From Gemmatimonadota bacterium (lineage in GTDB: Bacteria; Gemmatimonadota; Gemmatimonadetes; Longimicrobiales; Gaopeijiaceae): a DNA stretch of 64,000 bases. Under the pieces are notes generated by a model. That model was not told the DNA's origin. It searched no databases and worked only from the letters and a program-made list of their open reading frames with translations. Below are positions 2,715-7,045 of this stretch, piece by piece; within the stretch, counting starts at the first letter, position 1; each line of letters opens with the position of its first letter. The translations under genes were made by a program, and so were the position numbers. Location: assembly GCA_022826565.1 (NCBI GenBank), contig JAJDUP010000026.1, positions 1 to 64,000 of the forward strand, in the 5' to 3' direction.

Positions 2715-6647
<3,933 letters not shown>

Positions 6648-6669
6648 GGGTGGAACCCACCGGGCGGAC

Positions 6670-6720
6670 GTGGCTTTTTAGCTGTTTCCTGGCCGCAATA
6701 CGCCACAAATCGCCGTTGCA
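6670..6720 (-). promoter_or_regulatory. SAM-II riboswitch in the metH leader
   Basis: Read on the minus strand, the segment carries the SAM-II core in order: GATTT (6711-6707), a variable block GTGGC (6706-6702), GTATTGC (6701-6695), a P1 3' strand, an A-rich joint, then GCTAAAAAG (6682-6674). The crystallised SAM-II aptamer has the same GAUUU, GUAUUGC and GCUAAAAA blocks. The variable block pairs perfectly with GCCAC at 6674-6670, replacing the CC/GG pairing of the reference, so the pseudoknot covaries. The GC/GC pair next to the ligand site is also kept. P1 is weak: only GGC/GCC (6714-6712 with 6693-6691) or an alternative GGCC pair. Downstream, GTGG at 6660-6657 could compete for CCAC of the pseudoknot, and GGTGG/CCACC (6661-6649) forms a hairpin against the first possible start codon. 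Position upstream of metH fits SAM feedback. Confidence 0.75.
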
Positions 6721-7045
6721 TCGGCCTTTCCCACCGCAAACGGCGGAGGCCGCTGAAGTTGCAACGATAGCGGAAATGCCGGGGCGATTCCAGCGGCGGG
6801 GGCGAGCGCCTGACCGCCCGGGAGGCAGGGAATGAGTATATGAGTATATGAGTAGGAATGCTCCCGACCGCGTGCCGGGACCTCCCTGGCATGGCCGCCC
6901 GCGCGCCTGATCGCGGTCCCTGCGACGACGACGTTCACCCGGCGGTCGATGAAGCATCGCCCCGTGGTCGCGGTTGCTCCGCAGAGTGTTCGGTTATGGC
7001 AATCCCAATTGAACCGCACAATTATTCGGATACCCTTCCGCAAGA
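6721..7045. other. Intergenic region between divergent metH and propeller lipoprotein genes
   Basis: With 6648-6720 this makes a 398-base gap without a credible gene. It holds the SAM-II element at its left end, an 8-base tandem repeat at 6833-6854, and presumably the two divergent promoters. On the minus strand the repeat offers TATACT, a fair -10 for metH. On the plus strand I see no convincing -35/-10 pair before 7046. Short ORFs here are shadows without ribosome sites or family features. Confidence 0.6.
6833..6854. repeat. 8-bp tandem repeat, 2.75 copies, in the metH promoter region
   Basis: TGAGTATA occurs at 6833-6840 and 6841-6848, followed by TGAGTA at 6849-6854. It is an AT-rich island in a very GC-rich genome. 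On the minus strand it gives two copies of TATACT, so it may contain the metH -10 region, or it may be a regulator site or a slipped-strand repeat. Confidence 0.8.

Follow-up and report, generated by a model that had tools for sequence, protein, structure and literature searches.

A probable SAM-II riboswitch of compact form upstream of metH in a member of the Gemmatimonadota

Results

The leader of metH in a Gemmatimonadota bacterium very probably contains a compact SAM-II riboswitch, the conserved core and the riboswitch class pointing to SAM binding and repression. The aptamer comprises 45 nt upstream of metH and lies within positions 6649–6720 of the window (the whole 64-kb stretch of DNA that was analysed; Table 1). 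The minus-strand sequence of the leader is ...ACGGC GATTT GTGGC GTATTGC GGCC AGGAAACA GCTAAAAA GCCAC..., in which the core elements GAUUU, UAUUGC, and GCUAAA occur in SAM-II order. The P1 stem is formed by three base pairs (GGC/GCC), and the pseudoknot by GTGGC of the loop pairing with GCCAC in the 3′ tail after GCUAAAAA. The earlier note had recognised the SAM-II motifs in this order, a P1 of about 3 bp, the downstream metH, and a Gemmatimonadota-like host, and on all of these points our analysis agrees with it.

Table 1. Positions of the aptamer elements, leader features, and related loci (window coordinates unless a locus is named)
Feature	Position	Strand	Evidence
SAM-II aptamer, 45 nt	6670..6714	-	Covariance models
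P1 5′ strand GGC	6712..6714	-	P1 pairs covary phylum-wide
SAM-II core GATTT (L1)	6707..6711	-	Invariant in 47/47 aligned aptamers, a set gathered using GATTT
Pseudoknot 5′ strand GTGGC (P2)	6702..6706	-	Pairing and covariation analyses
SAM-II core GTATTGC	6695..6701	-	Nearly invariant; first base G to A in part of genus
P1 3′ strand GCC	6691..6693	-	Pairing and covariation analyses
Shortened loop L3 AGGAAACA, 8 nt	6683..6690	-	Commonest length in phylum is 11
SAM-II core GCTAAAAA	6675..6682	-	Genus leaders and alignment
Pseudoknot 3′ strand GCCAC	6670..6674	-	Pairing and covariation analyses
Expression platform, possible helix P3: GTCCGCCCG (6669-6661) with CGGGTGGAT (6616-6608) around small hairpins	6608..6669	-	alifold; weak
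Ribosome-binding block TTGGCGGGGAG... and GTG start (6584-6582)	6582..6608	-	Block and in-frame GTG conserved across genus
metH, B12-dependent methionine synthase	2715..6584	-	NF007024 2019.6 bits, TIGR02082 1667.8 bits; start corrected from TTG 6647
Putative sigma-70-like promoter	6764..6792	-	TGGAAT (6792-6787), 17 nt, TATCGT (6769-6764)
L3-hairpin SAM-II loci, sister genera	L089 200-300; L099; L101	L089 +; L099, L101 -	Before metH

Detection by Family and Lineage Models

With a relaxed threshold, RF00521 aligns at full length to the focal leader, which is its top-scoring site anywhere in the 4.39-Mb genome. The covariance-model check proposed in the earlier note was thus positive as to alignment and rank, but the 18.0 bits obtained lie below the gathering score of 36 bits, which is a curation cut-off and not a structural feature. 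When Rfam is applied to the window at the gathering cut-off, a tRNA is the sole match, with SAM-II falling below it. The cut-off is probably missed since the family model draws chiefly on alphaproteobacterial forms, a bias suggested by the family name and consensus, and since P1 and L3 are short here. RF00521 itself reaches its cut-off in 9/59 relatives. A 23.5-bit RF00521 match in another genome (G128, L054) was discounted because no SAM-II core is visible in it.

Because the RF00521 E value (0.08–0.23) is not significant by itself, the identification is decided by comparative evidence. A covariance model (R2) built from 29 Gemmatimonadota aptamers outside the focal genus gives the focal site 46.9 bits (E 9.7e-8), the sole significant match in the focal genome (next 16 bits), and scores the other aptamer-bearing leaders of the genus at 36.8–54.3 bits. 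Model searches of the focal genome, which is about 93% complete, found no second SAM-II copy. RF00521 is the sole riboswitch family matched by the leader; RF01826 (SAM-V), which is reported (PMC6061858) to share the pseudoknot fold, with SAM bound in a triple helix of the major groove, differs in giving no match in the leader up to E 10.

Conservation and Covariation

Comparison of 22 metH loci of the focal genus identified the aptamer in 20 leaders, where it is 94.9% identical, compared with 53.8% for the upstream and 46.9% for the downstream flank. Aligning related metH leaders, as the earlier note had proposed, finds the GTGGC/GCCAC pairing retained in these 20/22. The two remaining loci differ in kind: in G233 (L083) the metH leader is unrelated, and G347 (L065) lacks both promoter and aptamer but retains the metH ribosome-binding block. 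In the latter, other, possibly coding, sequence adjoins the block, as if metH were under another promoter.

Pairing was analysed in aptamers gathered using core motifs, with most P1 and pseudoknot positions left free; core conservation in the resulting alignment (A1) is therefore partly built in, and the pairing counts lean to the GGC type because the pattern used for part of the set fixed three pseudoknot 5′ and two P1 positions. Within A1, 7/13 pairs are altered on both sides, and the covariation score is 0.204, compared with 0.095 for shuffled and at most 0.094 for slid partners. The P1 stem enclosing the GAUUU..UUGC loop, present as 3 bp in the focal copy, is supported by covariation and is 87% paired in A1. 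Its pair −4:+5 interchanges T-A, G-C, and C-G, with 89/104 distinct aptamers paired against a shuffled mean of 47.6; the focal sequence does not form this pair, the most strongly covarying one in P1. The third pseudoknot pair is G-C in 76, C-G in 21, and A-T in 2 cases (100/102 paired versus 65.2 shuffled). The covariation that the earlier note had ascribed to the pseudoknot is present phylum-wide at this pair; inside the genus the GTGGC/GCCAC pairing is nearly invariant. The note had also set this pairing against CC/GG in the known aptamer; the pairing holds, but its unusualness was overstated because a longer pairing of the GGCC type is already part of the Rfam consensus.

Two explanations would remove the need for a functional riboswitch. 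Coincidental occurrence of the short motifs in a leader rich in GC might be entertained from the RF00521 E value alone, but the independent model R2 (E about 1e-7), a backwards-pattern control with no match in any row, and conservation in 20/22 leaders make it vanishingly improbable, and the comparative data have already ruled it out. A decayed or non-functional SAM-II relic would be in keeping with the short P1 and low Rfam score; however, a near-invariant aptamer between divergent flanks across the genus, with a pseudoknot that has been lengthened, renders such decay highly unlikely.

Distribution in Gemmatimonadota

The core pattern GATTTN{2,10}GTATTGCN{6,36}GCTAAA occurs in 72/395 genomes of the phylum, and the same pattern read backwards gave zero matches in any row of the same search. 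Model R1, which includes the focal genus, matches 287/394 sampled genomes (103/143 genera) of one Gemmatimonadota class at E ≤ 0.001; the Rfam cut-off misses the focal copy and most tested relatives. Named records with SAM-II are mainly from Gemmatimonadota.

The genes downstream are mostly metH and other methionine, aspartate, or sulfur genes, as expected for a riboswitch located upstream of methionine/SAM-pathway genes: metH follows 70/115 matches that have a downstream frame, and representative others encode threonine synthase, aspartate kinase, an aspartate-aminotransferase-like protein, a sulfite/nitrite-reductase-like protein, and MetX. SAM-II precedes threonine synthase at L013, L019, L108, L138, L152, and L192, in Gemmatimonadota and in Anaeromyxobacter, aspartate kinase at L120, and a sulfite/nitrite-reductase-like gene at L106. 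One further copy, coupled to a strong terminator, stands ahead of panB (ketopantoate hydroxymethyltransferase) at L025 (359-1541, minus strand), a gene for which control by SAM would not have been expected.

A Shortened P1 and L3 with a Lengthened Pseudoknot

GTGGC-type aptamers have on average a P1 of 3.35 bp, a pseudoknot of 4.95 bp, and 13.9 nt from UUGC to GCUAA, compared with 5.40 bp, 3.12 bp, and 21.5 nt in all others; the summed pairs are about equal (8.3 versus 8.5). In the focal genus P1 has 3–4 bp and L3 about 6–8 nt, and the pseudoknot has grown from about 3 to 5 bp. This genus-wide shortening of P1 and L3 with lengthening of the pseudoknot is new here. A P1 of 6 bp goes with an L3 of 10–11 nt, and a P1 of 3 bp with an L3 of 8 nt. 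The L3 adenines pack into the minor groove of P1 in the solved SAM-II structure (PMC12434664), and a shortened P1 would accordingly be expected to go along with a shortened L3; as the compact form belongs to a single lineage, the correlation counts as one event, not many. Sister genera show the opposite, with an extra hairpin inside L3 of the SAM-II aptamer preceding metH (e.g. CCGACCAA...TTGGTCGG).

Start Codon, Promoter, and Expression Platform

The start of metH is assigned to GTG 6584, which is aligned and in frame across the genus and is preceded by a conserved TGGCGGGAAG-like block. In several genus members only 21 residues separate this GTG from MGTM, close to the point at which the metH profile starts to match. 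TTG 6647, which the earlier note took as the first start codon, was rejected, as it is not conserved across the genus leaders. With the start at GTG 6584 and its ribosome-binding block adjacent, the pseudoknot does not cover the ribosome-binding site. The putative promoter region aligns, with conserved sequence, across most leaders of the genus; sub-clade 2 has TTGATT-N17-TATGAA, and transcription is expected to start near 6757; a strict scan, which uses the E. coli consensus, did not recover this promoter. Short tandem CATATACT repeats are located at 6848-6829 (minus strand) between a divergent peptidase gene and metH, and also occur in some relatives (L064, L067).

Between aptamer and start codon, alifold of 14 clade-1 leaders places the long-range helix P3, with marginal per-sequence support against shuffles. 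Its position is conserved in clade 1, but it is weak relative to shuffles and absent from clade 2, and was not retained as an established element. A terminator scan found no intrinsic terminator in the focal leader, and the focal aptamer has no Shine-Dalgarno sequence in its pseudoknot. Sites resembling terminators come after 32/48 of the other metH copies and 37/45 of the non-metH ones (5–11 in shuffles), and a U-tract terminator is present in only 2/22 focal-type leaders (0–1 in shuffles). A canonical terminator follows most other Gemmatimonadota copies and is essentially lost in the focal genus. In non-metH copies such as L011, L014, and L019, GCCGC of the pseudoknot 5′ strand is perfectly complementary to GCGGC on the 5′ side of the terminator that follows, which suggests antiterminator pairing in the SAM-free state.

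Discussion

The proposed fold is an H-type pseudoknot with a 3-bp P1, the 5-bp helix GUGGC/GCCAC, and a SAM pocket that would be made from GAUUU, GUAUUGC, and GCUAAAAA. SAM binding would lock the pseudoknot, and metH expression would fall when SAM is plentiful. Going by the conserved core and the riboswitch class, the likely function is SAM-dependent repression of metH.

With SAM-II (RF00521, SAM_alpha; structure 2QWY) the focal copy shares the GAUUU, UAUUGC, and GCUAAA(A) core, the H-type P1/P2 pseudoknot, the A-containing L3, and the position upstream of a methionine gene. It differs in its 3-bp P1 and 8-nt L3 (across the phylum, 6 bp and 11 nt are common), its pseudoknot of 5 rather than about 3 bp, its score of 18 bits where the cut-off is 36, and in having neither an adjacent terminator nor a Shine-Dalgarno sequence in the pseudoknot. 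The S. meliloti metA SAM-II likewise has its used start codon well downstream of the aptamer; in contrast to the focal leader, where the ribosome-binding block is beside the GTG and no terminator was found, its Shine-Dalgarno sequence lies inside the riboswitch and a proven terminator follows (PMC9373788). A 2007 survey reported SAM-II hosts among the alpha- and gamma-Proteobacteria and the Bacteroidetes (PMC2258182). Our search of the open-access literature found no SAM-II riboswitch in Gemmatimonadota, which does not prove its absence there. Some higher-scoring Gemmatimonadota relatives are presumably included in the Rfam full alignments.

How the aptamer would act on metH is less certain than its identity. 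Control of translation from GTG 6584, exerted by way of the structured platform of 60 nt, has, in our judgement, about an even chance of being correct. Modelled access to the ribosome-binding block, in models that cannot treat pseudoknot energy or co-transcriptional folding, shows no consistent shift between open and closed aptamer, and the switching step is therefore without computational support. We consider translation control somewhat likelier than termination because the canonical terminator is missing here. Termination at a weak or non-canonical terminator, or by Rho, directly downstream is nevertheless a reasonable minority reading: terminators follow most other metH and non-metH copies, they dominate the known proteobacterial SAM-II platforms (PMC2258182), and in sub-clade 2 of the genus a retained hairpin (ACCCGC...GCGGGT) immediately follows the pseudoknot and has a pyrimidine-rich tail. 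Against it stands the near absence of U-tract terminators from genus-type leaders, the focal one having none. The alternative switch put forward in the earlier note, in which CCAC (6673-6670) pairs with GTGG (6660-6657) to control translation, draws on a complementarity that is present in the focal sequence. However, GTGG occurs within 22 nt of the pseudoknot in only 3/20 leaders, two of them near-identical; both modelled states predict that it pairs within a local hairpin, GGTGGgttCCACC (6661-6649), and when the focal leader is folded freely its minimum-energy structure lacks the alternative pairing. We regard this helix as very unlikely to be the switch.

Taken together with the loss of the terminator, the compact form may represent a re-balanced aptamer, in which P1 and L3 were pared and stability moved to the pseudoknot, coupled to a changed expression platform; we propose this tentatively, at a little under even confidence. 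If true, a re-balanced aptamer with a new platform would constitute a natural experiment in riboswitch rebuilding. The compact form also poses the question of how short P1 and L3 can become before SAM binding fails.
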